From Bryobacterales bacterium (GTDB lineage Bacteria; Acidobacteriota; Terriglobia; Bryobacterales; UBA6623): a DNA stretch of 64,000 bases. Under the pieces are notes generated by a model, which made no database searches, had not been told where the DNA came from, and worked only from the letters and a program-made list of their open reading frames with translations. Of this stretch, positions 2,911 through 61,100 are shown one piece after another (the first letter of the stretch is position 1; each line of letters starts with the position of its first letter). The stretch lies in the NCBI GenBank assembly GCA_028819215.1, contig JAPPMG010000038.1, positions 1-64,000 of the forward strand, written 5' to 3'. The position numbers were made by a program, and so were the translations under genes.

Positions 2911-5900
2911 ATGGCCCTGATGTGTGCATCCCTCATGCGGTTGCTCGCATGGCCCTTGGCATTGTCCTTGGGCGTCTCCGTCGCCGGAGCAGAACCCGCC
3001 TACGATGAGTTCGAGCGCGTCCAGGCCGAGGAGGAGCGACTCCGGTCTGAGCATGAGCGCGACCTCTTTCTGCAAGGCATCCTAGAGGCGCGGCGCCAAG
3101 CGGCTCACGAGCGCTTGGAGGACGCCGCTAGCACGATTCAGCCGGAGGCCTTCTGTCCGGCCTTGGTCAGCCAGAGTCCCGCGCCGCGCACATTCCGGAA
3201 GCGCATCGCGGGCCCCTTGCAGCCTAGGTTCGCACCGCCACCGCGCCAGCCTTGGAAGGGTGTCGCGTCGCCGGAGGAAGCCCCGAGCACTCTGTTCAGC
3301 GACTACATTTCAACGCCGGTCGTGCAGTCGAAGTGCATCTACTGCCACGTCGAAGGAGGGGCTTCCGGCCATACGCGGCTGGTGCTCACGTCTCAGGACG
3401 TGGATGGGCACGCCGCCACCAACTTGGCTGTATTCCAGAACTTCGTTGACACCGTCGAGGGCGGGGCCGACCTGATCCTCAACAAGATCCAGGGAGCCGA
3501 GGCCCACGGCGGGGGCGTCCAAGTGGTGGCCGGATCGACCGACTTCGCCAACATGGAGCGGTTCCTGCGCGCATTGGGAGGCGAGACCAGATCCGGGCTG
3601 ATCTCCCCAGACGAGCTCTTCAACGGCGTCACCCTCGCAACGTCTGCCAAGACGCTGCGCCGCGCGGCGCTGCTGTTTGCCGGAAGGCTTCCCACTCAAG
3701 CCGAGCTGAACGCCGTGACATTCGGCAACAAGGCTACCCTGCGGCGAACGATCAGGGGCTTGATGACCGGCCCGGGATTTCACGACTTCCTGATCCGCTC
3801 GGCCAATGACCGGTTGCTGACGGACGCGGAGCGAAGAACCGTGATCCCGAATAACGAGCCACGGTTTGTCGACCACACAAACAAGCTCTGGGAACTGGCC
3901 GATGCGGCCGTCAAGAATGGCTATGACCGTCTGAGCCGATATCCGCCGTATCGCTTCTACTCCAGCGCCGTGCAATACGGTTTCGCGCGCGCTCCACTGG
4001 AACTCATCGCCCACGTCGTCGAGAACGATCTTCCGTACACCGAGATCTTGACGGCGGACTACATCATGGCGAATCCCCAGGCTGCGCTCGCGTATGGCGC
4101 GGACACGGAGTTCGACAACCCCGAGAATCCGACCGAATTCAAGCCCTCAGAGATTCTCAGCTACTACAGAAGGAACAATACCCAGATCGTGGAGCAGGAC
4201 CCGATGCGCGGGCGGAGAGTGATCAATCCGGGCAATCTCCCCACGGACTACCCCCATGCCGGAGTCCTCAACACGACGGTCTTCTTGAGGCGCTACCCGA
4301 CGACTCCGACCAATCGCAATCGGGCTCGGTCCCGCTGGACCTACTACCACTTCCTAGGCTTCGACATCGAGAAGTCCGCGGCGCGAACGACGGATCCAGT
4401 CGCCTTGGCGGACACCAACAACCCGACGATGAACAATCCCGCGTGCACCGTCTGCCATATTCCGATGGACCCGGTTGCCGGCGCGTATCAGAACTACGGC
4501 AACGACGGCCTGTACCGAGACAAGCGCGGAGGGATGGACTCCTTGCCGACGCTGTACAAGTACCCCAAGGACGGAACGACTTCCCCGTACCAGCGAGGCG
4601 ACACTTGGTTCCGGGACGTGCGTGCGCCGGGCTTCGACGGCATGACAGCCCCTAGCGCTGACAACAGCCTGCAGTGGCTGGCGGAGAAGATGGTTGCGGA
4701 CGAGAGGTTCGCCAGCGCGGCCGTCCGGTTCTGGTGGCCCGCGGTCATGGGCGTGGAACTCGTCGAGCCTCCCACGGAATCCTCCGATTCCGATTTCAAC
4801 GTGATGCTGGCCGCTTCCTCGGCGCAGGCCCTTGAGATCGACGCGCTTGCCCAGTCGTTCCGCGACGGGTTCGATGGCGGCACGCCGTACAACGCGAAGG
4901 ACCTGCTGACTGAGATCGCCCTTTCCCCGTGGTTCCGGGCCGAGTCGGTCACGGGTGATGACGAGACTCGGATGGCCGCTCTCCGAGACGCCGGCGTCGC
5001 GCGGCTACTGACGCCAGAAGAGCTCGTAGCGAAGACAGATGCGATCACCGGCTACGTTTGGGGCAGGCGCTTCCAGTTGCCTTTCGGGTTCGAAGAACCT
5101 AGGAGCAAGCTCCATAATCCGGCGAGCTATGCCGGCTACCAACTGCTCTACGGGGGGATCGACTCGAACGGGATCACCGAGCGCACCGGCGACATGACGG
5201 CCCTGATGGCGTCGGTCGCCCAGAGCCACGCCGTGGAGGTGAGCTGCCCGATCGTCCGCCGGGAATTCTTCTACTGGCCAGACGAGCATCGCTTGCTCTT
5301 TGACGGGATCAGTCGGCTAGACACCCCGTTGTCGGAAGCGGGAGGGTTTTTTGAGATCACGGCCACGTCGGAGGATGCTCAGCAGCTGGTCGCCTTGGAA
5401 GTTTCGCTCTCGGCAGGATCCCAGACGGTCAATCTGGCGTTCACGAACAACAATACCTTCGGGCAGAAGGACAGTGAGGGGAACAACCTTGATCGCAACC
5501 TGAACCTGGATCGGCTGGTTGTCCGCGATAGCAACGGGGCGGCCGTATCCGAGGTGGAACTGGAGACGCTCGACAGGCAGAGCTGCGGCTACCCGAGGCC
5601 GAGGGCAGGCATCTACTTTATGAGGGGCAATTGCACTTTGCAGGTTCCGGTACAGGTCGCGTCGAGCGGTGAATATACCGTTGAGATCCAGGCCTACCAA
5701 GACCAGGCTGGCGACCAGGCCGCTCGCTTGGAGGTCGACGTGCGATCGGAAAGCCGCCGTCCGCGAGGCGAGATGGCGATCCGCCGGAAACTGGCCGACC
5801 TGCACGCAAAGCTCTACGGCGTAACAGTGGGGGTCTATTCCACTGATGTCAACGAGGCTTTCGACCTCTTTCTCGAGGTATGGAACCGCAGGCGGACTTC

Positions 5901-6141
5901 GGGCGACGAGGGATTCTTCAACGGGCAGCTCACGTGTAACGGCGGTGCAGACCATGGCTACTTCGAGGGCCTTGCCCCCGACGCACTGTTCTTCCAATCC
6001 GGCGGAGCCAGCAACCTCGACAGCGATGCCGTACGAGCATTCGCGAGAGAGATGAACATCGCCGATTCGAACCACATCGCCGAGGCCTGGGTCGTAACCT
6101 TGGCGTATATGCTGGCCGACTATCGGTACCTGTACTTCTAG
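2911..6141 (+). CDS. Exported CxxCH (haem c) protein, DUF1592/DUF1588-family-like, with CBM60-like motif
   Basis: About 1,076 residues from the ATG at 2911. An in-frame GTG at 2872 is also open, but 2911 opens the signal peptide (LLAWPLALSLGVSVAGAEP). Two CxxCH haem-c-type motifs are visible: CIYCH at about residue 142 and CTVCH at about 512. The second, followed by IPMDPVAGAYQNYG, resembles the cysteine motif of the planctomycete-type DUF1592/DUF1588/DUF1585 proteins. Near residues 841-867 is FTNN followed by DRNLNLD, which resembles the calcium-binding FTND...DRNL.vD signature of CBM60 xylan-binding modules. Together these suggest a periplasmic or surface redox protein that docks on polysaccharide; this function is inference. 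The stop overlaps the ribosome-binding site of the DUF1501 gene, so the two are almost certainly co-translated. Many DUF1592-type genes in other phyla have the same DUF1501-type partner. Confidence 0.75.
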   Translation: MALMCASLMRLLAWPLALSLGVSVAGAEPAYDEFERVQAEEERLRSEHERDLFLQGILEARRQAAHERLEDAASTIQPEAFCPALVSQSPAPRTFRKRIAGPLQPRFAPPPRQPWKGVASPEEAPSTLFSDYISTPVVQSKCIYCHVEGGASGHTRLVLTSQDVDGHAATNLAVFQNFVDTVEGGADLILNKIQGAEAHGGGVQVVAGSTDFANMERFLRALGGETRSGLISPDELFNGVTLATSAKTLRRAALLFAGRLPTQAELNAVTFGNKATLRRTIRGLMTGPGFHDFLIRSANDRLLTDAERRTVIPNNEPRFVDHTNKLWELADAAVKNGYDRLSRYPPYRFYSSAVQYGFARAPLELIAHVVENDLPYTEILTADYIMANPQAALAYGADTEFDNPENPTEFKPSEILSYYRRNNTQIVEQDPMRGRRVINPGNLPTDYPHAGVLNTTVFLRRYPTTPTNRNRARSRWTYYHFLGFDIEKSAARTTDPVALADTNNPTMNNPACTVCHIPMDPVAGAYQNYGNDGLYRDKRGGMDSLPTLYKYPKDGTTSPYQRGDTWFRDVRAPGFDGMTAPSADNSLQWLAEKMVADERFASAAVRFWWPAVMGVELVEPPTESSDSDFNVMLAASSAQALEIDALAQSFRDGFDGGTPYNAKDLLTEIALSPWFRAESVTGDDETRMAALRDAGVARLLTPEELVAKTDAITGYVWGRRFQLPFGFEEPRSKLHNPASYAGYQLLYGGIDSNGITERTGDMTALMASVAQSHAVEVSCPIVRREFFYWPDEHRLLFDGISRLDTPLSEAGGFFEITATSEDAQQLVALEVSLSAGSQTVNLAFTNNNTFGQKDSEGNNLDRNLNLDRLVVRDSNGAAVSEVELETLDRQSCGYPRPRAGIYFMRGNCTLQVPVQVASSGEYTVEIQAYQDQAGDQAARLEVDVRSESRRPRGEMAIRRKLADLHAKLYGVTVGVYSTDVNEAFDLFLEVWNRRRTSGDEGFFNGQLTCNGGADHGYFEGLAPDALFFQSGGASNLDSDAVRAFAREMNIADSNHIAEAWVVTLAYMLADYRYLYF

Positions 6142-6145
6142 GAGG
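6141..6145 (+). promoter_or_regulatory. Ribosome-binding site overlapping the upstream stop
   Basis: GGAGG lies five bases before the ATG at 6151, and its first base is the last base of the upstream TAG stop. It favours ATG 6151 over the in-frame GTG at 6148 and indicates translational coupling. Confidence 0.75.
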
Positions 6146-6150
6146 ACGTG

Positions 6151-7437
6151 ATGAATCGGCGTAGCTTCATGCAGGTGATGGCAGGCGTGGGGGCCGTGAC
6201 GGGCTTCCGCGTCCCGCTCGCGAAGGCCACGGACTACCGGGGCAAGCTGTTCGTATTCGTTCAAGCCCGCGGCGGCTGGGACCCGACCAGCTTGTGCGAC
6301 CCGAAGACCAACGTCGCTGGCGAGCCGATCATCAACCACTGGGCGGAGGCTGCCGAGGTGCGTCAAGCGGGCAACATTCGCTATGCTCCGTTCGCGAAGA
6401 ACCAGGCCTTCTTTGACAAGTACTACCAGCGCATCCTAGTTGTGAACGGCGTGGATGCCCAGACGAATTCCCACTCGGCTGGCGTCACCCACAACTGGAG
6501 CGGGCGGATCTCGGAAGGCTACCCAACGACGACGGCCCTCCTTGCCGCTCACAACGGCGCGGGCCTTTCGATGCCCTACCTGAGCTTTGGAGGGTTCTCG
6601 AACACGGCCGGAGTCGCCGTGTTCACCCGGCTGAACAATCCAGGCGAAATCCGGAACATCGCCAAGCCGGAACTGTTGGGCGGGGACTCGACCCGTAGGC
6701 CATATTTCAGCGCAGAAGATTGGACGTCATTTACACGCCACCGCGACAAGCGAATGGCTCGCCTTGCGGCGGCTCCCAATCTCATGCCCAGAGACGCCCG
6801 AAATAGGGAACTGTACGCTGCGGCCTTGGACGTGGACGCGGCCGAGGGGCTCAGGTCGTTCGCCGACATGATTCCCAGCGATCGCGAGCTGAACCAGGTG
6901 GAGGAGTACGGTTTGTATCGCAGCTCCCTCAAGCGGCAAGCACAGCTGACAGTGCTCGCCTTCAAGGCCGGCGTCGCCGTGAGCGCGGACCTGTTCATGG
7001 GCGGCTTCGACACGCATGACAATCACGACCCGGACCAGAACTGGCTGCTGGGAAATCTCACGGACTCGATCGACTACCTGTGGGACTACGCAGAACTCCA
7101 CGGAGTCGCGGACCGCATGGTGGTCGTGATGGGGTCGGATTTCGGTCGGACCAATAAGTACAACTCCGACCTAGGGAAGGATCACTGGCCGATCGGCAGC
7201 TTCATCATCATGGAGAAGAACCAGGGATGGACGAACCGTGTGATCGGCGAGACGGACGAGCTGCACTTTGCTTACAAGGTCGATCCTACGACCCTGCAGC
7301 GGAACGACGCGGGGGGAACGCGGATCCATCCCAAGCACATCCACAAGGCCCTGCGAAAGTACCTAGGCGTCGGGGACACTGCAAATAGCCTGCGGTTCCC
7401 GTTCAACAACACCGAAGAGCTGCCGCTGTTCTCTTAG
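6151..7437 (+). CDS. Tat-exported DUF1501 family protein
   Basis: 428 residues starting with a twin-arginine signal (NRRSFMQVMAGVGAVTGF). The body shows the DUF1501 pattern, a relative of the alkaline phosphatase/sulfatase fold: FVFVQARGGWDPTSLCDP near the start, GGFDTHDNH in the middle and VVMGSDFGRTNKYN towards the end. No enzyme activity is established for the family. DUF1501 genes commonly sit directly after DUF1592/DUF1553-type cytochrome-like genes, as here with a nine-base gap. The protein is probably folded with a cofactor or metal in the cytoplasm and then exported to work with its partner. The family call is secure; the function is not known. Confidence 0.85.
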   Translation: MNRRSFMQVMAGVGAVTGFRVPLAKATDYRGKLFVFVQARGGWDPTSLCDPKTNVAGEPIINHWAEAAEVRQAGNIRYAPFAKNQAFFDKYYQRILVVNGVDAQTNSHSAGVTHNWSGRISEGYPTTTALLAAHNGAGLSMPYLSFGGFSNTAGVAVFTRLNNPGEIRNIAKPELLGGDSTRRPYFSAEDWTSFTRHRDKRMARLAAAPNLMPRDARNRELYAAALDVDAAEGLRSFADMIPSDRELNQVEEYGLYRSSLKRQAQLTVLAFKAGVAVSADLFMGGFDTHDNHDPDQNWLLGNLTDSIDYLWDYAELHGVADRMVVVMGSDFGRTNKYNSDLGKDHWPIGSFIIMEKNQGWTNRVIGETDELHFAYKVDPTTLQRNDAGGTRIHPKHIHKALRKYLGVGDTANSLRFPFNNTEELPLFS

Positions 7438-7636
7438 GCGGCGCTGATCCGCAACCACTGGCAGAGCGAGAACTGCCTGCGCTCCGTTCGCTCCGCTCCC
7501 TCCCCGGCCGCCTCAGGCACCATCGCGGGGAAGGAGGGACTCCGCCAAGCCTGCGGCGGATGCCCCCCAGATCTGTGAATTTTGTTGGTTATTGGCAGAT
7601 TTCTGAGAACTAGCCGTTGGAATAGCAAGATCTGCG

Positions 7637-7665
7637 TTGACCAGACGGCCCGGTGGCCCTATGAT
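7637..7665 (+). promoter_or_regulatory. Sigma70-like promoter of the TonB-dependent receptor
   Basis: TTGACC (7637-7642), a 17-base spacer, then TATGAT (7660-7665). Each box matches the consensus at five of six positions with ideal spacing. Transcription would begin near 7672. Confidence 0.65.
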
Positions 7666-7792
7666 GCGGCCAGCCGAACGGGCTGAGTGCCGGACAGGCG
7701 CCAGCGGATCCGGCCAGAACGATCACTGAACTGAGCTCTTGGTTGCATCAACTCGGACCTCGCCCGTGACCGAATCGGCTACGGAACCCTCC

Positions 7793-7800
7793 AGGGAGGA
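7793..7800 (+). promoter_or_regulatory. Ribosome-binding site deciding the receptor start
   Basis: AGGGAGGA ends four bases before the ATG at 7805. The frame is open from a TTG at 7739, but this site and the signal peptide directly after it fix the start at 7805. Confidence 0.8.
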
Positions 7801-7804
7801 CGAA

Positions 7805-10800
7805 ATGCAATCCAAGACAAGACTGTACGCGATCCTAGCCGCGTTATTCGCTTGCGCCGCAACGCTGACTGCACAGGTCGACACGGGGGTGCTGAGCGGC
7901 ACTGTTTCCGACGCCTCGGGAGCGGTCATTCCGGGTGCGAGCGTGGAGGTCCTCAACACCGCCACGAACTACCTGTTGACGCGGGAGTCGAACGCTTCCG
8001 GATTGTACGTCTCACCTCCCCTGCCACCGGGACCGTACCGAATCACGATTTCCAGCGAGGGCTTTCGGACGGTAGCGAAAGAAGTCGCGCTGAACCTGTC
8101 CGAGAGAATCGCGGTCGACTTCGAGCTCGAAATCGGTGCCGTGGCCGAGTCGGTCGACGTGGAAGCCATCGGGGCGGTCCTGCAGACCGAGACCGCCACT
8201 TTGAGCACGTTGCGCTCTGAGGAGGAGGTCAAGGAACTCCCGAACATCTCCCGGAACTTCGTGGACCTGATGCGCTACAGCGCTGGAGTTGTCTTGGCCC
8301 AACCTCACAACTCCGGCCTGCCGCTGTCTCAGATTCGCGGTAGCACGGTGTCGTCTGTGAACGGCGGGCACATGACGGACAACAACTTCGTGATCGACGG
8401 CCTCCAGAACAACAGCAACCATCAGGGCCAAGGCGTGATGGTGTTCCCTGAGATCGAAGCGCTCGAGCAATACCGCGTGGAGACTTCCGCACCGGACGCA
8501 CGGTATGGACGAACGGGCGGGACGCTGAACATGGGCTACAAGTCGGGCACCAACGAATTCCACGGATCGGCCTTCTGGTTTCTGCGCAACGATGCCCTCG
8601 ACGCGAGGAATTTCTTCAATACCGGCGACAAGACCCCGCTGAAGAGGAACATGGCGGGTGCCACGCTCGGCGGGCCACTCGGTCGCAAGGACGGCTCGAC
8701 GTTCTTCTTCCTCTCGTACGAGGGGACGCGAACACGTCAGAACACCACGAACATCGCAAGCGTGCCAACGGATCTGATGAGGACTGGAGACTTCAGCGAG
8801 GTGACCGGCCGGAACCGCATATTTGATCCGCTCACATCGACTCGGAACGAGGCGGACAGGCTCGTCCGTGAGCCGTTCGCGAACAATTCGATTCCGGATG
8901 CACGCTTCAGCCCACAGGGGCTGGCGGCCCTGCGGCACTTTCCAGATCCGACGGATCCCGGCCTCGCGGCCAACTTCACCACCGCTGCCAGCAACACACA
9001 AGATACCGACCAAGGCACGGTCAAGATCGATCGGGACTTCAGCGGAGGATCGCGCGGATTCTTCCGCCTGACGAGAGGCCGGGCCGATTTCGTCAACGGG
9101 TTCGCCAATATCCTGGGTCCGGAAGCAACGCCTTTTGTCCGAGTCCAGGCACCCTCGTCACAGATCGTGATCAGCCACACGCAGATCATCAGTCCCAGAA
9201 CCATCAATCAAGTCCGCGTCGGATTCACGCGCGAGAACTTGACGGCCGTTTCTCTGAACGGCGGCCGCAACACCGCCGAGGAGTTTGGCATCCCGAACGT
9301 AAACGTGGATGAGTACACGACCGGGCTGTCCGCCATTACCGCCGCCGGGTACCCACGCCTGGGAGACAACTTTTGGAACCCGGCGATCCTGCCAATGAAC
9401 AACATTCAGTTCAGCGACAACTTCGAGATGACGCGCGGCAACCACAGCTTCCGGTTCGGGTTCGATGCGGTGCGTCGCCACACCAACGGCTTCCAGACTT
9501 CCAGGCCTCGAGGAGACTTCGGATTCTCTCTCAGATTCACGAACAATCCAGCCAACGCTAGGAACACGGGATTCGGCCCTGCTGAGCTGCTGCTTGGCAA
9601 ACCCGCTACGGTCCTGCTCGTGTACATGCAAGGAACTCGCGGAATGCGTAGGACCGACTACGCGGCCTACTTCCAAGATGACTGGAAGGTGAATCAGAGA
9701 TTCACGCTCAACCTCGGGCTCCGCTGGGACCTTCTGGCGGACTACCCGCAAACCGAAGTCGGCGACAGGCTGATCCAGTTCGATGTAGAGTCTGGGAATC
9801 CTGCTCCGGTCAACGAAGGCCCGTTCCCATGGAGAAGTGGCATTGCGAATGATCTGAACAACTGGGCGCCACGCGTAGGGATGGCGTACCGCATCGGGAA
9901 CGGCACTGTCATTCGCGCCGCCTACGGCATCTACTACAACGGCCAGCCGATTCACCTCAACGCGGGCCTACTCTCGCAAGCACCCTTCTTCACAAACACG
10001 CGAGTCGTCAACGCCCAAGGCGATTTTGAGGGCGCCCGAGGCCTGGCCGACGGCCCGCTCCGGACCAGGGAGCTCCTTTCTCCGGGGCAGAGCCGGCGGG
10101 GCTACGATCCCAACAGCTATGCCATTCCGTACATGCAGCAATGGAACATTGCGATCCAGCAGCAGATTCCCGCCCAGCAGCAGCTGACCGTTGCTTACGT
10201 TGGATCGAAGGCAACTGCGCTGCGCCAGGGGATCAACTTCAACCAGGCCGTGCCGGGAGCCGGGCCCGTTGCCAGTCGCCGACGCTGGCCGAGTCACGCG
10301 AACGTCCTCATCGTGCAGACCCGAGGCAATTCCAACTATCACAGCCTCCAAACCACTCTCCGCAAGCACTTTTCCAGAGGCTTGCAGTACCAACTCAACC
10401 ACACGTGGGCGCACAACATCGACGAATCAACCGGTGGCCTGCCGATCACGGACTTGTCCGGGAATCGGGCCAACAGCAGCCTGGATCTTCGCCATTCGGT
10501 CAACGCCACCGTTGGATATGATCTGCCGATCGGCGGCGGCAAGGCGCTGCTCGGCGACGCATCCGGCGTGCTCGACCAGATCGTCGGCGGATGGAAGATC
10601 AACGGGGTGATGACTCTCACGGACGGCTATTGGTTCAGCCCAGCCGGGCCGAATACGCTGAACATTGGCGAAGGAACCCGGCCGGATCGGATTGCCGACG
10701 GAAATCTGCCTGACAACCAGCAGACGATTCAGCGGTGGTTCGACACCGAGGCATTCGTGGCACCGGGCTTCCGGCTGTGGGGCAACTCGGGCCGCAACGT

Positions 10801-11041
10801 GCTCTATGGCCCGGGAACGAAGCTGGCAAACGTTTCGGTCCACAAGAACTTCAGCGTCGGCGAGGGGAAACGGCTCCAGTTCCGGGCCGAGTTCTACAAC
10901 GTGACCAACACTCCGCAATTCAACAACCCGGCTTCGAACATCAGATCGCCTGCCGTGGGGCGGATTACCAGGGCCGGCAGCGAGAACCGGTTCCAACGCA
11001 CGCAGCGCCTCTTGCAGTTCGGACTGAGGTTCGTGTTCTGA
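7805..11041 (+). CDS. TonB-dependent outer-membrane receptor with N-terminal carboxypeptidase-regulatory-like domain
   Basis: 1,078 residues. A signal peptide (MQSKTRLYAILAALFACAATLTAQ) is followed by a carboxypeptidase-regulatory-like beta-sandwich at about residues 26-110 (GVLSGTVSDASGAVIPGASV), a plug region with RGSTVSSVNGG and NNFVIDGLQNN, and a long barrel ending in FGLRFVF, with the terminal phenylalanine usual for Bam substrates. This layout is characteristic of the very large acidobacterial receptor families that import glycans and other bulky ligands with TonB energy. The ligand cannot be read from sequence. The next genes (exported oxidoreductase, sulfatase) suggest a sugar substrate, but only by context. 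The gene has its own promoter and a strong hairpin 27 bases after its stop. Confidence 0.92.
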   Translation: MQSKTRLYAILAALFACAATLTAQVDTGVLSGTVSDASGAVIPGASVEVLNTATNYLLTRESNASGLYVSPPLPPGPYRITISSEGFRTVAKEVALNLSERIAVDFELEIGAVAESVDVEAIGAVLQTETATLSTLRSEEEVKELPNISRNFVDLMRYSAGVVLAQPHNSGLPLSQIRGSTVSSVNGGHMTDNNFVIDGLQNNSNHQGQGVMVFPEIEALEQYRVETSAPDARYGRTGGTLNMGYKSGTNEFHGSAFWFLRNDALDARNFFNTGDKTPLKRNMAGATLGGPLGRKDGSTFFFLSYEGTRTRQNTTNIASVPTDLMRTGDFSEVTGRNRIFDPLTSTRNEADRLVREPFANNSIPDARFSPQGLAALRHFPDPTDPGLAANFTTAASNTQDTDQGTVKIDRDFSGGSRGFFRLTRGRADFVNGFANILGPEATPFVRVQAPSSQIVISHTQIISPRTINQVRVGFTRENLTAVSLNGGRNTAEEFGIPNVNVDEYTTGLSAITAAGYPRLGDNFWNPAILPMNNIQFSDNFEMTRGNHSFRFGFDAVRRHTNGFQTSRPRGDFGFSLRFTNNPANARNTGFGPAELLLGKPATVLLVYMQGTRGMRRTDYAAYFQDDWKVNQRFTLNLGLRWDLLADYPQTEVGDRLIQFDVESGNPAPVNEGPFPWRSGIANDLNNWAPRVGMAYRIGNGTVIRAAYGIYYNGQPIHLNAGLLSQAPFFTNTRVVNAQGDFEGARGLADGPLRTRELLSPGQSRRGYDPNSYAIPYMQQWNIAIQQQIPAQQQLTVAYVGSKATALRQGINFNQAVPGAGPVASRRRWPSHANVLIVQTRGNSNYHSLQTTLRKHFSRGLQYQLNHTWAHNIDESTGGLPITDLSGNRANSSLDLRHSVNATVGYDLPIGGGKALLGDASGVLDQIVGGWKINGVMTLTDGYWFSPAGPNTLNIGEGTRPDRIADGNLPDNQQTIQRWFDTEAFVAPGFRLWGNSGRNVLYGPGTKLANVSVHKNFSVGEGKRLQFRAEFYNVTNTPQFNNPASNIRSPAVGRITRAGSENRFQRTQRLLQFGLRFVF

Positions 11042-11068
11042 AGGAGTCGACCGCGCTCGTTGCCGGAG

Positions 11069-11095
11069 CGGGGCGGCCGCTCGACGGTCGCCCCG
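11069..11095 (+). terminator. Strong GC hairpin after the receptor gene
   Basis: CGGGGCG (11069-11075) pairs with CGCCCCG (11089-11095). A G.U pair and an inner CCG/CGG extend the stem to about 11 pairs around a CTCGA loop. No T-tract follows, so it may stabilise the mRNA 3' end rather than act as a classic intrinsic terminator. Confidence 0.5.
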
Positions 11096-11287
11096 TAGCC
11101 TGTCCGCGAGGGCGGGCCCCACGTCGCTATTACTTCCGAAGCCTGCCTCCACAATGCGTGCGACTTGATGGCAGACCGTGACGTGAATGCTGCCATCTAC
11201 ATTCTTCGGTAGTAAGGTACATGTATAGTGCAATGTGTCAACGAGGTTTCGGCACTGGACCGAACCCTCTTAGTGAGGAGCACGGCC

Positions 11288-12637
11288 ATGGATACCAAGT
11301 CCGCATCTAGACGTTCGTTTCTGGCGCATGCCGCTGCCGCTCCGGCTGTCGCCGCTGCGCCTGCCGCTTCGCGGGTCCTCGGGGCCAATGACCGCATCAA
11401 CATCGGCATGATCGGCACGGGCTCGAAGGGCCGCTCACACCTCCGCCGGCTAATGGCTAGGGCCGGCGATCAGGACGACGTCCGCGTCACCGCAATCAGC
11501 GACATCTACCGCAAGCGGAGCGAGGAAGCGCTGGATCTTGCGCAACTCGGCGGAAAGCGAGGCTACGTCGACTACCGCGAGTTGCTCGCGCAGCCGGACA
11601 TCGATGCGGTCTGGATCTCGACCCCCGACCACTGGCACGCCACGATGGCCTTGGACGCTCTCGCCGCCGGCAAGGACGTCTACCTGGAAAAGCCGATGAC
11701 CTACACCATCGAGGAGGCGCGCCGGATCGCCGAGGCGGTCGAAAGCAGTGGACGGATCCTTCAGGTGGGCAGCCAGCATGTCTCGGACCGGCGGTATCAC
11801 GAGGCCCGCAATGTAATCGACGAGGGCTGGATCGGCCCCGTGCTCTGGGCGCAGAACACGTATTGCCGTAACTCGCTGTATGGCGAGTGGAACTACACGG
11901 TCGATCCCGAAGGCACGCCTGAGAATATCGATTGGGAGAAGTTCCTTGGCGACGCGCCGGCGCGGCCGTTCAGCCCCGAGCGCTTCTTCCGCTGGCGCAA
12001 GTACTGGGACTACTCCGGAGGGATCGCGACCGACCTCTTCTACCACCGCCTCGCTCCTCTGATGTTGATGATGGGCAAGGAATTCCCGACTCGCGTGAGC
12101 GGCCACGGCGGGATCTACGTGCATCGCGAACGCGAGGTCCCTGACACCTATGCCACTGTCATCGAGTATGGAAGCCACTACGTCAACCTGTCTGCCTCGA
12201 TGGCGTCATCGGCGGGCAATGTCGGCATGCCCACCGTGGTGTACGGGCACGAGGGAGCGATCACATTCCTGCCGGATGCGATCGAAGTTCGACCCGAGTA
12301 CCAGTTCGCCTCGAAATTCCGCGAATCCACCGGTCAAGATCTCCTGCGTATCGAGGTAGAGCAGCCGGATGTCAGCAACGCTCACATCGGCAACTTCCTC
12401 GGTTGCATGCGCGACCGTTCCAAACCCGTGTTCGACGCTCAGTTCGGCTATCAGGCGATGACGGCGATTCGGCTCGGCGTGGACTCCTATCGCAGCGGTC
12501 GCATGATGGCGTTCGATCCACATGGCGAGCGAGCGCGTCCGTTTGCCGGGCCGCGGCCGGGCTACGAGGGTTCCGGCCAGAACTTCAAAGAGCCGCCTCG
12601 GCGACCGCCTCGCAACCAGCGCCAGACGAGCGGGTAA
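11288..12637 (+). CDS. Exported Gfo/Idh/MocA-family oxidoreductase
   Basis: 449 residues. A Tat signal (SRRSFLAHAAAAPAVAAAP) precedes an NAD(P)-binding Rossmann fold with GTGSKG at residues 43-48 and the catalytic-type EKP at 134-136, then the C-terminal alpha/beta domain with a long central insertion (YWDYSGGIATDLFYHRL). Tat export with a bound nucleotide is typical of glycoside-active members in Acidobacteria and Bacteroidota, which oxidise or otherwise transform sugars in the periplasm. The start is ATG 11288, preceded by AGGAG at about 11274; the frame is open further upstream without a better start. A TATAGT box at 11224-11229 could be a -10, but no good -35 pairs with it. The sulfatase starts 42 bases downstream on the same strand, so the two may be co-transcribed. 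Confidence 0.88.
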   Translation: MDTKSASRRSFLAHAAAAPAVAAAPAASRVLGANDRINIGMIGTGSKGRSHLRRLMARAGDQDDVRVTAISDIYRKRSEEALDLAQLGGKRGYVDYRELLAQPDIDAVWISTPDHWHATMALDALAAGKDVYLEKPMTYTIEEARRIAEAVESSGRILQVGSQHVSDRRYHEARNVIDEGWIGPVLWAQNTYCRNSLYGEWNYTVDPEGTPENIDWEKFLGDAPARPFSPERFFRWRKYWDYSGGIATDLFYHRLAPLMLMMGKEFPTRVSGHGGIYVHREREVPDTYATVIEYGSHYVNLSASMASSAGNVGMPTVVYGHEGAITFLPDAIEVRPEYQFASKFRESTGQDLLRIEVEQPDVSNAHIGNFLGCMRDRSKPVFDAQFGYQAMTAIRLGVDSYRSGRMMAFDPHGERARPFAGPRPGYEGSGQNFKEPPRRPPRNQRQTSG

Positions 12638-12679: not shown

Positions 12680-14119
12680 ATGGTTTACCGCTGCGTCGCT
12701 GCATTGTTGCTGGTCTGGGCCTCGGCGTCGGCCCAAGACAGGCTCAACGTCTTGTTCATCGCTACCGATGACATGAACAACGATCTTGGGACCTACGGGC
12801 ACCCCGTGGTCACGACGCCGAACTTCGACCGGCTGGCCCGCCTCGGCGTCCGCTTCGATCAGGCCTATTGCAACTACCCGGTGTGCAATCCGAGCCGAGC
12901 GTCGCTGATGACGGGCCTCTACCCGGACCAGACGAAGGTCCGCAACAACGCGACCTACTTCCGCAACACGATCCCGAGCGTCAAGACGCTGCCGCAGATG
13001 TTCCGCGACAACGGCTACTTTGTTGCTCGCGTGGGCAAGATCTATCACTACGGCGTCCCAACGCAGATCGGGGAGAACGGCCTGGACGACCCTGCCTCTT
13101 GGGAGGAGCGGGTCAATCCCCGCGGCCGTGACAAGTGGGAGGAGGACCAGATCTATTCGATCGATCCCGTCACCGGGAACCTTGGCGGCACTCTGAGCTG
13201 GATGGCCCAGGACGGCACTGACGAGGAGCAGACCGACGGGATTGGCACGACCGCAGCGATCGAGTTGCTGGAGCGGGAGCGCGACCGGCCGATCTTCTTG
13301 GCGATGGGCTTCTACCGCCCCCACACTCCGTACGTGGCGCCCAAGAAGTACTTCTTCCAGTACCCGCTGCACATGGTGCGGCTGCCGGCCGAGCCGCTCG
13401 ACGATTTGGTCGACATACCGCCAGCGGCATGGGTGGACCGCCCCTTCCAGCTCAACCTACCATTGAGGAAGCAGCGCGAAGCCATTCAGGCATATTACGC
13501 CTCGATCAGCTTCGTGGACGCCCAACTCGGTCGCCTGCTGGACGCCTTGGAGCGGCTGGAGATGGTGGACAACACGCTCATCGTGTTCTGGTCCGACCAC
13601 GGCTACCACATGGGAGAGCACAAGCTCTGGCAGAAGACGACGTTGTTTGAGAATTCGGTGCGCGTGCCTTTCTTCATCGCTTCGCCCGCGCACCGCAAGA
13701 CCGCCGGCTTGAGCACGCGCTCGCTGGCCGAGTTGGTAGATGTGTACCCCACCTTGGCCGAGCTGTGCGGCCTGGATCCTCCCAAGCACGTGGCCGGCAA
13801 GAGCTTGGTGCCGGTTCTTGAAGATCCCACGCGGTCCGTTCGCGACTCCGCTCTTGCCACGTTCGACACGCATGACCGCGTGAATCCTCGGCGGCCGCTG
13901 CGTCCGAGAGCCGTTGGCTACACGGTGCGAACGGATCGCTGGCGCTACACCGAGTGGGGTCCGGACGGCGTAGAGGGGGTTGAGCTCTACGACCACTGGA
14001 ATGATCCAAAGGAGTACGTGAATCTTGCCAGGGCACCTAGCCAGCAAGGCACGGTCAAGGAGATGAAGCAGTTGCTGAAGCGGAGGGTTGCCACGGCCAC
14101 GGCAGCACCGGACCTGTAG
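12680..14119 (+). CDS. Secreted sulfatase, iduronate-2-sulfatase-like
   Basis: 479 residues with a Sec signal (CVAALLLVWASASAQ). The formylglycine motif CNPSR lies at residues 69-73, where the cysteine is matured to formylglycine, followed by SLMTGLYPDQTKV. Metal-binding aspartates are in ATDDMN (D30, D31) and WSDHGYHMGEHKLWQ (D306, H307), with the catalytic-type His/Lys in the latter. The overall pattern, including KIYHYG and GFYRPHTPYVAPKKYF, fits the S1 iduronate-2-sulfatase-like group, which removes sulfate esters from sulfated polysaccharides. It follows the exported oxidoreductase closely. No sulfatase-maturing enzyme is in the window, so maturation must be encoded elsewhere. Confidence 0.9.
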   Translation: MVYRCVAALLLVWASASAQDRLNVLFIATDDMNNDLGTYGHPVVTTPNFDRLARLGVRFDQAYCNYPVCNPSRASLMTGLYPDQTKVRNNATYFRNTIPSVKTLPQMFRDNGYFVARVGKIYHYGVPTQIGENGLDDPASWEERVNPRGRDKWEEDQIYSIDPVTGNLGGTLSWMAQDGTDEEQTDGIGTTAAIELLERERDRPIFLAMGFYRPHTPYVAPKKYFFQYPLHMVRLPAEPLDDLVDIPPAAWVDRPFQLNLPLRKQREAIQAYYASISFVDAQLGRLLDALERLEMVDNTLIVFWSDHGYHMGEHKLWQKTTLFENSVRVPFFIASPAHRKTAGLSTRSLAELVDVYPTLAELCGLDPPKHVAGKSLVPVLEDPTRSVRDSALATFDTHDRVNPRRPLRPRAVGYTVRTDRWRYTEWGPDGVEGVELYDHWNDPKEYVNLARAPSQQGTVKEMKQLLKRRVATATAAPDL

Positions 14120-22038: not shown

Positions 22039-22125
22039 CCGCCGCCTCCTTGGCCGACCCGAAACGGGAGCCAAAGCGCCGGCGTCAAATTTCAAGGGCC
22101 TGTGCAAGAATCAAGAATTGGCGCG

Positions 22126-25100
22126 ATGAGAGGGAGGGGCATCTTCGCAGCCGTCGGCGCTCTTGCCATAGCGTCCGTCGCCGTCGGCCCTGTATTCGCG
22201 GCTCCCGCGCACTTCGACAAGGTCGCCTGCGGGAATCCGCGCGCTGCCCAGGAAGCTGTTTTCCTGGCGCAGCAGCGGCGGTTGTTGGAGAGGAAGGAGC
22301 GCTTCAGGGCCCGCGCCCAATCTGGACCGTCGGTGCCGACTAGCGTGGATGGCATCGCGATCGTCGAAGCCACGGACGAAGTGCTCTCGCCGCCTCGCCC
22401 GTTTGACCTAGCCGAGTCGTCGATCACGATCACGCCCGAGCGGGATAGTTTCCGAGTCGCAGTTTCAAGATTTCCCGGAGGGGCACCGCTGCCCCAAGAA
22501 GGAATTCCATTGGATTTGGAGGATGACGACTTCAAGCTCGTCCAATTGCCGTTTGAGTTTCCATACTACGGTTCTTCCCACGACAGGCTCTTCGTCAATT
22601 CCGACGGCAATCTCACCTTCGTGCATCCGGAGGCGAGTTCCTGGCCTAGGAGCTATCAGCGGGCTGCCGCCGGTCCGGCGCGGATTGCCCCCCTGTTTCG
22701 CGATCTAGATCCGAGCCGTGGAGGAAGCGTCCGAGTCGCGGCTACATCCGAAGCGCTGACCGTGGCATGGCATGCTGTGCCGCTGTTTACCGAGGGTCCC
22801 GTAGGAGACCCGCAGACGTTCCAAGTGACGATCCAACGAGATGGCGGAATCGAGTTCCGCTATGGGGAAGTAAACCTCCTCGAAGCGGTGGTCGGTTTGT
22901 TCGGCGGCCAAGCCATCAGTGGTGCCGTAGCAGTCGACTGGAGTTCAGTCGAGTCCATGCTTTTCGATGGGGGCAGCATCCTAGCCGAGGTCTTCATGAG
23001 CGATCCGGCTATCGATGAAGTTGCCATGGTGCGTTCGTTCTATCGCACCCAAGAGGATGCTTACGACACGGTGATTATTTTCAACGATCTTGACATGGCT
23101 GCGGGCGATGCTTCTCTTGCTCACGCCTATACCGTGCGGAACGAGGTTCGCGGAATCAACGAATATATCTCCGATTACGGTCGCCTATACGGTTCGCCGC
23201 GTCGCCTTTCGGCGTTCGTCAATATGGGCGCGCTATCGGACTACCCTGCCAGCCCGGCTGCGCCGATTCGCGGACTGCCGTATTCTTCGATGCTGACGAT
23301 CTTGGCGCACGAGGTCGGACACCGGTTCCTGGCTTACACGCCCTTCAAGGACCCCGAGACCGGCGAGCTGTCCGATGCCCTGCTCGGGCGCCAGTTCGCG
23401 CACTGGAGCTTTTTCTTGAACTCTAGCGCTTCTGTGCTCGAGGGCAATGCCATCACGGACAATGGCGAGGGCACCAGTCCCCGTTTCGAGACCACCGCTG
23501 CCACACAGACTTACAGCCTCCTGGACCAGTACTTGATGGGACTGCGGGATCCGTCGGAGGTGCCGCCGACGTTCTTGGTCACGAACCCCACGTCGACGAC
23601 GGCGTCACTCGGAAATGCGTCACGCACGCCGGAAGTCGGTGTAGAGTTCGACGGAGTCCGCAAGGAGATCCGCGTCGAGGACATCATCGAGGCAGTAGGT
23701 CCCCGCCGGCCCGACACTTCGGTGTCCCAGAGACAGTTCCGCCAGGCGTTCGTCCTGCTGGTCGATGAGGGTGTCCAGCCCAAGCCGGAATCGCTGCGCA
23801 CGTTGAGGCAGTTGCGAAGGTGGTGGCTCTCATTCGTCGATTTGCATTTGGAAGCTAGGGCTTCGAGTTCGGCCGACCTCGTGCGAATGCTGCACTTGTC
23901 AACGTGGCCCGCAGGCGGGCTGCTGGTCGGCTGTGCCGGCCCTGGGCAGGTCATGATCGCCGAGTCCCGCGACACAGATCTCGTCGTGAACCTGCGGCTT
24001 GACAGTGCAATTGCCGAAATCCCCTCCACCGTGACGATCCCGGCCGGGGAAGTGTCGGCCGAATTTGAGGCTCGCGGACTCGAATCCGGCACGGCAACCC
24101 TGACGGCGGAAGCAGCCGAGACCGGCTATGACCGCTTGGAGACTCGATTGGTGGTACGGGCGGACGCCACCGAGCTCAGCTTGGAGCAGCTGCACATCCC
24201 GGAGCAATATGGCATTGCGGGCTCGCCGCTGGGTGCGCCGCTGGAGTACCGAGTTCGGGATGAGAACTTGGTGCCCTATAGCGGTGTCGAGCTTGCATTC
24301 ACGGCGACCGGCGCGGATGCCGCCGAACTCCCTTCCAGTCGGACCGACGCGTCGGGACGAGCCCAGATCGACTGGCCCTTGGCGTCTTCGGCGGGCCAGC
24401 AGACACTGACGGCAAGCATTAGCGGTGCGCCGGACAGCAGCGTCGAGACCCAAGCGGTCGCTTCAGAGAATCCGCCCGCGGTGATGGCCGCTCTCACAGC
24501 CAATGCTGCCAGTGGTGAGACTACCGAAGCAGGCCGGGGCTTCGCCCGCGGGAGCTTGGTGACGATCTACGGCAATGCTCTGGCGACCGGGCCGTTCGAA
24601 GCTGACACGCTGTTGCTGTTCGGCAATCCGGCTCTTCCGGTGGATCTGGGCCTGACCAGCGCGCATGTCGCTGGAGTGGCAGCTCCGCTGGTAAAGGTGT
24701 CGACGACAGAGATTACCTTTCAGTTGCCTTTCCAGATCCCAGCGGATACGGCGGAAATCGTGGTGTCTTCCCCGTTCGGGCGTACAGACCCTGTGACGAT
24801 CCCCTTGGGGCCCGCACAGCCGGGCATCTTCCCGGATCGGGTGAGCGGGGGGGCGCGCGCTGCCGTGATAGATCCGAACAATCCGGGAGGCGGCGTGTTG
24901 CCACGTGCGGGGGGCTTGCTGGAAATCTATGGCACCGGATTCGGAGCGGTCAGCCCGCCCGGGCGCACGGGGCGACCCGGGCTCTCGATGCCTAGGCAGA
25001 ACGTGGTCGCAGAGACGGAAGCGTGGGTGGACGAACAGCCCGTCACGGTCACCATGAGCGCACTGGCATCTTTCGAAGCGGGCGTTTATGTGGTCACACT

Positions 25101-25194
25101 GGACCTGCCGGCGGATCTCGAAGCCGGCGATCACACGGTCAAGATTGCAGTGGGCGGGCAGGAGAGCAATTCGGTCGCGTTCGAGTCAGAATAG
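22126..25194 (+). CDS. Secreted multi-domain HExxH protein with a Solibacter-type C-terminal domain
   Basis: 1,022 residues from the ATG at 22126 (signal GIFAAVGALAIASVAVGPVFAA). In order: an N-terminal region of about 130 residues; a nidogen-like beta domain (PFEFPYYGSSHDRLFVNSDG) near 145-270; a catalytic-type zinc region with HEVGH at 395-399, AHWSFFLNSSASVLEGN and QYLMGLRDP; an Ig-like (Big) repeat around 630-780; and a C-terminal domain of about 220 residues with RGSLVTIYGNALA and LEIYGTGFGAV, matching the acidobacterial TIGR03437 type. The HExxH and the later H/E residues suggest a metallopeptidase, but the family is uncharacterised, so proteolysis is inference. The protein should be surface-exposed or released. 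Confidence 0.82.
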   Translation: MRGRGIFAAVGALAIASVAVGPVFAAPAHFDKVACGNPRAAQEAVFLAQQRRLLERKERFRARAQSGPSVPTSVDGIAIVEATDEVLSPPRPFDLAESSITITPERDSFRVAVSRFPGGAPLPQEGIPLDLEDDDFKLVQLPFEFPYYGSSHDRLFVNSDGNLTFVHPEASSWPRSYQRAAAGPARIAPLFRDLDPSRGGSVRVAATSEALTVAWHAVPLFTEGPVGDPQTFQVTIQRDGGIEFRYGEVNLLEAVVGLFGGQAISGAVAVDWSSVESMLFDGGSILAEVFMSDPAIDEVAMVRSFYRTQEDAYDTVIIFNDLDMAAGDASLAHAYTVRNEVRGINEYISDYGRLYGSPRRLSAFVNMGALSDYPASPAAPIRGLPYSSMLTILAHEVGHRFLAYTPFKDPETGELSDALLGRQFAHWSFFLNSSASVLEGNAITDNGEGTSPRFETTAATQTYSLLDQYLMGLRDPSEVPPTFLVTNPTSTTASLGNASRTPEVGVEFDGVRKEIRVEDIIEAVGPRRPDTSVSQRQFRQAFVLLVDEGVQPKPESLRTLRQLRRWWLSFVDLHLEARASSSADLVRMLHLSTWPAGGLLVGCAGPGQVMIAESRDTDLVVNLRLDSAIAEIPSTVTIPAGEVSAEFEARGLESGTATLTAEAAETGYDRLETRLVVRADATELSLEQLHIPEQYGIAGSPLGAPLEYRVRDENLVPYSGVELAFTATGADAAELPSSRTDASGRAQIDWPLASSAGQQTLTASISGAPDSSVETQAVASENPPAVMAALTANAASGETTEAGRGFARGSLVTIYGNALATGPFEADTLLLFGNPALPVDLGLTSAHVAGVAAPLVKVSTTEITFQLPFQIPADTAEIVVSSPFGRTDPVTIPLGPAQPGIFPDRVSGGARAAVIDPNNPGGGVLPRAGGLLEIYGTGFGAVSPPGRTGRPGLSMPRQNVVAETEAWVDEQPVTVTMSALASFEAGVYVVTLDLPADLEAGDHTVKIAVGGQESNSVAFESE

Positions 25195-59375: not shown

Positions 59376-61100
59376 TAGGTCCCTTTGCGGCTCTAGCGGC
59401 GCATGTCCTTGATAGTTCTGTCCCACGGTTGCGGCGGCAAGGGGTCGTATCTGGGTCTGGAATCCTTTGCCGGCATCGACCGGACCACGGTGCTCAGCTT
59501 GGCGAGAGCCTCGCGGTGCTCTGGCTTGCCGCTGGCGAGCAGGTTGTTCTCTTCGCCGGGGTCGGCCTGCAAGTCGTACAGTTCCCGGACTTCCGCCTCG
59601 TGGACGTGGACCTTGTAGCGCTTGTCTCGGATCACTCGCGGGGCGTAGTCCAGCCGACCCCGCACGCCTCGTTCGTCCAAGATGGCTGCGCCGAATCCCA
59701 GCGCTAGGATCCAGTCTCGCGGGCCGGATCGCCGCTTGCCTAGGATCACGTCGGCTATCGACTTGCCGTCGATCTGCACCCCTTGGGGAAGGGCAGCGCC
59801 GGCCAGTTCGCAGAAAGTGGGCAGCAGATCCGAGAAGTCGGTTAGTTCACCGGTCACGACGCCGGCGGGCACTAGGCCCGGACCGTTCACGATGAATGGC
59901 TGCTTGGGGCCGTTCTCGGTCAGCTTGGCCTTGCCGCCCCTCACGGGTCTGCCGTTCAAGCTGCCGTGGATCCCGCCCGACGTTCCGTTGTCGGTGGTGA
60001 AGATCACGATCGTGTTGGAGCGGACGCCGGAGTCATCGAGCGCCTTGACCAGCCGGCCGACCAAGTAGTCGGTGTAGCGCACCATCGCCTTGTGCTTCTC
60101 GAGCTTGCTCTCGGCGAACGGTTCGTGAGGCGTCGACACAAGCGGACCGTGGGTGAGAGCCATCGGGTAGTAGAGGAACATCGGGCGGTCGCGGTGACGC
60201 TCGATGAAGTCCGTCAAGAAGTCGTTGAAGATGTCGGGGCCGAACTCCCCCGCGTACGTCCGGCTGCTCGACTTGCTGGTGTAGATGTACGGATCCCAGT
60301 ACCGTTCGTTGCTGACGGGATTGCCGCCCTCGCCTCCGGTCCAGACGGACCACTCGTCAAAGCCGTGACGGTCGAGGATGTCGGGCTGCACGCGGAAATC
60401 GTTGATCTGCCACTTGCCCGCGATCGCGGTCGCGTAGCCAGCCTCACGCAGCAGGCGAGCTACCGAGATGTTGTGCTCGGGGTCGAAATGGCAGCCCGCT
60501 CCCCACCGCGGCACGTCCCAGTGGTTCGTCCATCCGTGGCGGAACGGGTACTGTCCGGTAAGCAGCGTGACTCGCGTCGGCGTGCACTGCGGCATCGAGT
60601 AGGCGTTGCTGAAGCTCATGCCGCCCTGTGCGAGCTTGTCGATATTCGGCGTCTCGATGCCTTCGCCCCCGTAACTGGAGATCCATTCCGGCCCCAGGTC
60701 GTCCACCATGATGAAGACGATATTGGGGGGTGCCGCCCATACGGGAATGGCAAGCAGCAAGATTGCGAAGCGGAGCACGGGTGCCATGGCGGTGATTTCC
60801 AGCGTAACCCGATTCGGTTGTGGAGATGTTGTCGCAGAACGGCGATCTTGCGCGCCTGCCGCGCTCCGAGCTGGCCGAAACCACGCGTTTCAGGCGTGCT
60901 GCTGATCGGAATGGCCGTAGCCGAGAGGACAGATCAGAGGCCTGCCCAGACTCGCCGCAGCCCACCTGACATCGGAGTGCTAGTGCTTGGGTCCGCCAGA
61001 TCGATGGACGCCTTCCCGAACTCGATTGCCAGAAGTGCCAGCCACATCTCGCAACCGAGAGATTGTGGATTTTCGTTTCGATCCGGTTGATATCGAACTC
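59376..61100. repeat. Direct duplication, copy A
   Basis: A 1,725-base unit that recurs at 61431-63155 with a constant offset of 2,055 bases. It holds the sulfatase gene plus about 310 bases upstream of it (60788-61100). The left edge is at TAGGT; the right edge is at GATATCGAACTC. The copies have diverged by point changes, but I saw no indels in the coding part. Confidence 0.85.
59393..60787 (-). CDS. Secreted sulfatase (arylsulfatase family), copy A
   Basis: 464 residues with a Sec signal (FAILLLAIPVWA). Metal-binding VDDLGPEW (D29, D30), the formylglycine motif CTPTR at 68-72 with SFSNAYSMPQ before it, and FTTDNGTSGGIHG. The variant T in the fourth place of C-x-P-x-R is accepted by many S1 sulfatases. 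It would remove sulfate from a polysaccharide or glycoconjugate. The second copy at 61448 has 34 amino-acid differences over 464 aligned positions by my count (about 93% identity). Most changes are conservative; some lie in the segment before the active-site DNG and around residues 170-190, possibly near the substrate site. Confidence 0.92.
   Translation of the reverse strand: MAPVLRFAILLLAIPVWAAPPNIVFIMVDDLGPEWISSYGGEGIETPNIDKLAQGGMSFSNAYSMPQCTPTRVTLLTGQYPFRHGWTNHWDVPRWGAGCHFDPEHNISVARLLREAGYATAIAGKWQINDFRVQPDILDRHGFDEWSVWTGGEGGNPVSNERYWDPYIYTSKSSSRTYAGEFGPDIFNDFLTDFIERHRDRPMFLYYPMALTHGPLVSTPHEPFAESKLEKHKAMVRYTDYLVGRLVKALDDSGVRSNTIVIFTTDNGTSGGIHGSLNGRPVRGGKAKLTENGPKQPFIVNGPGLVPAGVVTGELTDFSDLLPTFCELAGAALPQGVQIDGKSIADVILGKRRSGPRDWILALGFGAAILDERGVRGRLDYAPRVIRDKRYKVHVHEAEVRELYDLQADPGEENNLLASGKPEHREALAKLSTVVRSMPAKDSRPRYDPLPPQPWDRTIKDMRR

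Follow-up and report, generated by a model that had tools for sequence, protein, structure and literature searches.

A secreted-looking multidomain protein of Bryobacterales carries a metallopeptidase-like domain outside the family libraries searched, with a recurrently substituted predicted metal site

Zincins of the reprolysin/metzincin type (PF13582, PF13574, PF13688, PF13583) carry HExxH on a helix that follows a run of helix and strands, with a third histidine ligand and a conserved methionine downstream; in metzincins this third histidine lies 6 residues after the second. Substitutions within HExxH have been described in two further groups. In Volvox VMP3, an extracellular protein of family M11 (gametolysin type), the available part of the source reports glutamine in place of the first histidine in an otherwise intact site (QEXXHXXGXXH) and a preference for copper (PMC7717551, citing Heitzer and Hallmann 2002). 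The CLCA metallopeptidase-like family combines HExxH with evolutionarily kept substituted sites, histidine to arginine being named the common change of the first histidine in the available part of PMC3650047. At the level of whole proteins, the uncharacterised Solibacter C-terminal domain TIGR03437 provides a further point of reference.

The domain described here likewise has HExxH on a predicted helix after helix and strands, and shares with the reprolysin/metzincin zincins a likely histidine third ligand and a downstream methionine (M471). However, its predicted third histidine follows the second by 27 residues, its Pfam matches to these families stay under the cut-off, and no fold match was obtained in the PDB. 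The HExxHxxGxx[HD] metzincin motif is absent, with the window protein reading HEVGHRFLAYT and the alignments lacking the glycine and the H/D at the required spacing. Glutamine replaces the first histidine in some relatives, as in VMP3, but the third-histidine spacing differs and the window protein itself has histidine at the first position; no M11 model was present among the Pfam matches of 77 members (E <= 0.5) or 38 members (E <= 0.1). As far as the available CLCA text goes, both are HExxH families with substituted sites, whereas the change is H to Q here and H to R in CLCA, and Pfam scans of the window protein and of the same 77 and 38 members gave no CLCA match. Residues 797-1018 are a clear member of TIGR03437, here split into two TIG-like halves.

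The window, the whole 64,000-nucleotide stretch of DNA that was analysed, contains an uninterrupted open reading frame at 22102-25194 (+), in which the ATG at 22126 gives a protein of 1022 residues (Table 1). The start codon is common to close orthologues. Four of these are 88% identical over all 1022 residues (dN 0.066-0.069, dS 0.35-0.46), and a fifth, which ends at a contig edge, is 87% identical over 964 residues (dN 0.074, dS 0.37), such that dN/dS against the five is about 0.15-0.20. The sequence-only reading had tied its case to conservation of HEVGH in close homologues, and all five orthologues retain HE[VI]GH together with HWSFF. The low dN (0.066-0.074) relative to dS (0.35-0.46), with the motifs kept, indicates a frame under purifying selection rather than a chance open reading frame. 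The gene is real and conserved, and its product is secreted-looking. HEVGH occupies residues 395-399, AHWSFF 425-430, SVLEGN 436-441 and QYLMGL 468-473; the frame, these positions and the orthologues confirm the initial observation of a secreted-looking multidomain protein with HEVGH. The nearest relatives are encoded by Bryobacterales and Terriglobia metagenome assemblies, the best being 86-88% identical over the core, which points to Acidobacteriota as the phylum.

Table 1. Features of the window gene and its product (positions in the window).
Feature	Position	Strand	Basis
Coding sequence, 1022 aa, secreted-looking multidomain protein	22126..25194	+	Open reading frame; orthologues 87-88% identical
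Putative Sec signal peptide, residues 1-26	22126..22203	+	By eye; N-terminus same in orthologues
Nidogen-like beta-sandwich, residues about 95-281	22408..22968	+	All-strand part of AlphaFold2 model 81-625; weak NIDO
Metallopeptidase-like domain, residues 284-588	22975..23889	+	Without Pfam or NCBIfam family
HEVGH, residues 395-399; predicted ligands H395 and H399, predicted general base E396	23308..23322	+	111- and 156-row alignments
H426-W427 of AHWSFF; H426 predicted third metal ligand	23401..23406	+	Joint loss, invariance
E439-G-N, conserved in close group only	23440..23448	+	E in 118/148 intact, 1/8 broken copies
Y469-L-M-G472; Y469 and G472 invariant, broken copies included	23530..23541	+	156-row alignment
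Ig-like domain (Big_1-like), residues 706-776	24241..24453	+	E 6.8e-5, under Pfam curated cut-off
TIGR03437 domain, residues 797-1018, two homologous TIG-like halves	24514..25179	+	126.9 vs 29.05 bits

The proposed order of nidogen-like, HExxH, Ig-like and TIGR03437 parts holds. NIDO (PF06119) was weakly matched at residues 154-208 (E 0.0038, 17.7 bits against a curated cut-off of 25), and at E <= 0.01 in 20 of the 48 full-length family members scanned (best 1.7e-8). TIG was scored below threshold at 929-1019, and a faint Reprolysin_3 match appeared at E 0.18. Many relatives are only about 570-670 residues long and stop soon after the core, and the nidogen-like part plus the core thus looks like the minimal unit. 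Further relatives bear DUF5719 or BNR/VPS10-type repeats, and in some the core lies near the start of open frames of more than 4,000 residues (4,033 to 7,011). Very long carriers include L226 911-13009 (+), L224 10049-19900 (+) and L225 1-10347 (-); in the two very long proteins that were scanned, CARDB, FlgD_ig and Ig-like modules follow the HExxH domain. A third, divergent copy in the same genome (C76:13618-17049, L006, 208-2322 (+)) stands behind leucine-rich repeats and has HEFQH and a later SHWGF, with EGN absent. The family is broader than the architecture first proposed, taking in leucine-rich-repeat fusions, frames beyond 4,000 residues and short core-ending proteins.

The M28 peptidase and carboxyl transferase genes upstream of the window gene, and the genes for a VTT-domain protein and a SAM hydroxide adenosyltransferase (SAM_HAT) downstream, do not indicate an operon partner, staying with the gene in close relatives only, at 6-7 of 81 loci. 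Across these loci, whose flanks vary in length so that the counts are lower bounds, M28 was retained in at least 6, carboxyl transferase in at least 7, VTT in at least 6, SAM_HAT in at least 6 and FTHFS in at least 3; the loci keeping neighbour genes all belong to close relatives. Elsewhere in the window, a sulfatase gene (12680-14119 (+); PF00884, E 3e-49) lies near a gene for a TonB-receptor-like outer-membrane protein (7739-11041). Two tandem 464-residue genes at 59393-60787 (-) and 61448-62842 (-) appear sulfatase-like by eye, and the 93% identity of their proteins identifies the pair as a recent duplication.

The C-terminal domain had been recognised as TIGR03437, and its score lies far above the cut-off (Table 1; NCBIfam E 9.6e-37), with the model ending 5 residues before the stop. 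Its two halves align with each other at probability 96.9 (E 1.4e-10), three cutting points agree, and the TIG score from Pfam falls on the second half; this profile comparison resolves TIGR03437 into a TIG-like module and its internal duplicate. The same genome has the domain at 14 places in 13 open frames, all above cut-off, and 27 of the 48 full-length family members carry it. Among 94 distinct stop-containing copies, a set skewed to relatives of the window protein, the distance from domain end to stop is at most 15 residues in 80, 16-100 in 13 and larger in 1. We read TIGR03437 as tandem TIG-like Ig folds that prefer the C-terminus and form a putative stalk or anchor. Of the two jobs suggested earlier, sorting or anchoring, the two homologous TIG-like halves favour a structural or anchoring role over a short sorting signal. 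A search for SprA_N (type IX secretion) was uninformative, giving no match in this genome nor in any control genome.

Residues ~284-588 matched no Pfam or NCBIfam model above threshold and gave weak reprolysin echoes. Reprolysin_3 was weakly matched in 13 of 77 members (best E 0.0094) and Reprolysin_2 in one divergent row (E 0.00082), both under cut-off. Recurrent though weak, these matches speak for a peptidase reading; that they stay below cut-off and may reflect no more than the HExxH helix counts against it. The domain recurs across genomes. With a single core sequence as query, hits at E <= 0.001 came from 66 of the 396 genomes sampled from the phylum. A profile matched 82 of the 396 at E <= 1e-5. 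This profile began with the final 58 residues of the nidogen-like part, and in 10 of these genomes the hits are confined to that end (profile positions <=90), leaving about 72. In the phylum of a Pirellulales-titled record, matches came from 3 of 246 genomes, one of them the genome of the record itself. Among the best 80 of 388 stretches encoding relatives, 77 are titled acidobacterial, the exceptions being L047, L073 and L111. Profiles of the close (A4) and divergent (A5) groups align at an hhalign probability of 100 (E 1.2e-69) and, on this comparison, the two are one superfamily. The suggestion of a family of its own, mainly acidobacterial, is borne out.

PDB sequence searches returned nothing below E 0.5. 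Oligoendopeptidase F and aminopeptidases, at E 0.5-0.8, overlap the HExxH stretch and were set aside as no evidence of kinship. PHROGs gave no match, and in plasmid records one match fell in the nidogen-like part and one in the core. A literature search returned nothing on TIGR03437, Soli_cterm, nidogen-like Acidobacteria proteins or Bryobacterales sponge peptidases, and nothing among the literature on HExxH proteins and Solibacter usitatus was recognised as the window-protein family. The metallopeptidase-like domain is absent from the family libraries searched. In the same genome, a full-length paralogue on C17 (50% identity) retains HEIGH and HWSF. At this locus (L228, C17:14000-29000) the paralogue divergently adjoins an astacin (M12A) gene (PF01400, E 4.1e-32), the pair lying at 9107-11635 (+) beside 5703-9167 (-). 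In genome G516 (L227, C78), divergent copies of the domain occur in three tandem genes.

AlphaFold2 modelled residues 81-625 at pLDDT 90.2 and pTM 0.84. A fold search with this two-domain model returned a list filled by the beta-sandwich and was uninformative on the HExxH part; the domain was therefore folded alone (residues 284-588; pLDDT 93.0, pTM 0.90). The resulting model runs through a helix, four strands, the HExxH helix, further strands and a long last helix, with HExxH on a predicted helix after a strand. This predicted order is compatible with a zincin, and fits one without testing it. Foldseek against the PDB gave a best E of 3.2 with no zincin among the matches, and VIA-align, which re-examines Foldseek candidates only, a best Z of 3.1. 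Since typical zincin folds might be expected to match, the missing PDB match counts against the metallopeptidase reading; it shows neither a new fold nor the absence of a zincin fold. In a viral fold library the best match, a SprT-like protein (E 1.0, TM 0.14), was unusable.

Conservation within the family points to the likely metal site. In a 111-row alignment, position 395 is H in 95 rows, Q in 13 and R in 3, while E396 is kept in 109, H399 in 108, H426 in 107, E439 in 106 and M471 in 109. Adding divergent members gave 227 profile hits; removing redundancy and requiring at least 75% completeness left 156, namely 129 with HExxH, 19 with QExxH and the remaining site intact, and 8 broken copies with E396 or H399 changed. 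The HExxH core that had been emphasised earlier thus holds in the five orthologues and in 129 of 156 copies, but its first histidine is not universal. Where E396 and H399 are both kept (148 copies), H426 accompanies them in 146, and the two exceptions (L132, L193) show histidine there in another alignment. All eight broken copies lack H426, with T, E, Y, A or N instead. Among sufficiently filled columns, 426 is the best at splitting intact from broken copies, ahead of 395 and 396, which themselves partly define the split. The 8 copies of this joint-loss set come from few lineages, and an independent-pair test gave three supported pairs, each of them as expected (p 0.25, significance being unreachable). 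The 38 divergent A5 rows, picked without Q and broken forms and thus speaking for H426 and against E439 but not for H395, are invariant at H395, E396, H399, H426, Y469, G472, G525 and R527. On these patterns, H426 is likely the third metal ligand.

Loss of the metal-site residues leaves much of the domain in place. All eight broken copies (L029, L031, L035, L036, L168, L173, L175 and L176; candidate pseudoenzymes) keep W427, S436, G440, D467, Y469, G472, R527 and P529; as aligned, the scaffold is conserved apart from the metal site, indicating that non-catalytic roles exist in the family. Y469 is doubtful as a catalytic residue, and since broken copies keep both, Y469 and G472 are probably structural. 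Outside the 156 rows, L223 (genome G203, C35:12400-15500) has EEWGH with HW kept in a stop-interrupted frame.

Taken together, we consider it reasonably likely that the window protein is a metallopeptidase that is secreted and probably retained at the surface or in a matrix, and that its family lies outside the libraries searched; in this model metal identity, peptidase activity, zincin fold, location and substrate are all inferred. In this model, the protein would exit through Sec, and the nidogen-like sandwich just before the catalytic domain would probably bind a partner or substrate. A metal, most likely zinc in the H-type window protein, would be held by H395 and H399 of the helical HEVGH and, 27 residues further on, by H426. 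E396 would activate a metal-bound water for attack on the peptide bond, while the C-terminal Ig-like and tandem TIG-like modules would serve as a stalk or anchor. Domain order, HExxH core, separate and mainly acidobacterial family and TIGR03437 stand from the sequence-only reading; the points to correct concern the third ligand, the first histidine of HExxH across the family, the make-up of the C-terminal domain and the breadth of the architecture. Of most interest beyond that reading are the third histidine far from HExxH, the repeated exchange to glutamine in an otherwise intact site and the scaffold kept in broken copies.

It is also conceivable, if somewhat unlikely, that the HExxH domain serves chiefly in binding or scaffolding. 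Its metal would then be structural, or its site would bind without catalysing, and the H, Q and broken forms would be grades of a fold selected for a non-catalytic job. The eight scaffold residues kept in every broken copy, the 19 Q forms as standing variants, and the occurrence of the domain in giant adhesin-like proteins (CARDB, Ig-like) and behind leucine-rich repeats would fit such a role. However, E396, needed only by catalysis, is kept by 148 of the 156 copies, with every one of the 19 Q forms among them, and by each of the 38 divergent rows (these picked without Q and broken forms), which argues against such a role. A metal-dependent hydrolase that uses the same site to cut a different bond, for instance an amidase or esterase working on cell wall or glycans, is improbable. 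Although the domain has no clear fold counterpart among solved peptidases, the only recurrent weak family matches are to reprolysin-type peptidases and, to our knowledge, nearly all characterised HExxH enzymes of similar build are peptidases. Highly improbable is a gluzincin arrangement in which E439 of EGN, the only glutamate candidate seen, is the third ligand and H426 is otherwise employed: E439 is lost in 7 of 8 broken copies, but it is replaced in 30 of the 148 intact HExxH/QExxH copies, largely in the divergent group with invariant H426, so that of the AHWSFF and SVLEGN motifs singled out earlier the histidine of the former, rather than the glutamate of the latter, is the likely third ligand.

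A change from histidine to glutamine needs one base change. Within the 148 intact copies, a tree built without the site columns requires at least 11 H/Q changes, and collapsing branches with support below 80, 90 or 95 leaves 9, 8 or 4, respectively. All 19 Q forms retain E396, H399, H426, W427, Y469 and R527, and 18 of the 19 retain E439. Different forms occur side by side, with QEAGH, QETGH, QEQGH, RAVGQ and HETAH in the five copies examined from genome G377, and QEFGH, QEQGH and HETAH in three copies from genome G132. Because the site is otherwise intact and the QEXXH of VMP3 prefers copper, it is a fair hypothesis by analogy that the Q forms are active with a switched metal; alternatively, they may be weakened or dying enzymes. 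A fuller proposal, which we offer as speculation and think unlikely to hold in its entirety, is an undescribed secreted metallopeptidase family, perhaps with its own fold, that repeatedly switches its first ligand between H and Q with natural changes of metal (HExxH zinc; QExxH copper or other), such that H, Q and metal-less copies coexist in single genomes.

These results delimit a confidently modelled domain and offer a specific active-site prediction for exported acidobacterial proteins that are without a family model. The split of TIGR03437 into two halves suggests a structural reading for the domain that ends many exported acidobacterial proteins. Moreover, should the Q forms prove active, their family would be a natural test set for how the metal of a peptidase depends on a single ligand, a question that so far rests on an algal example.
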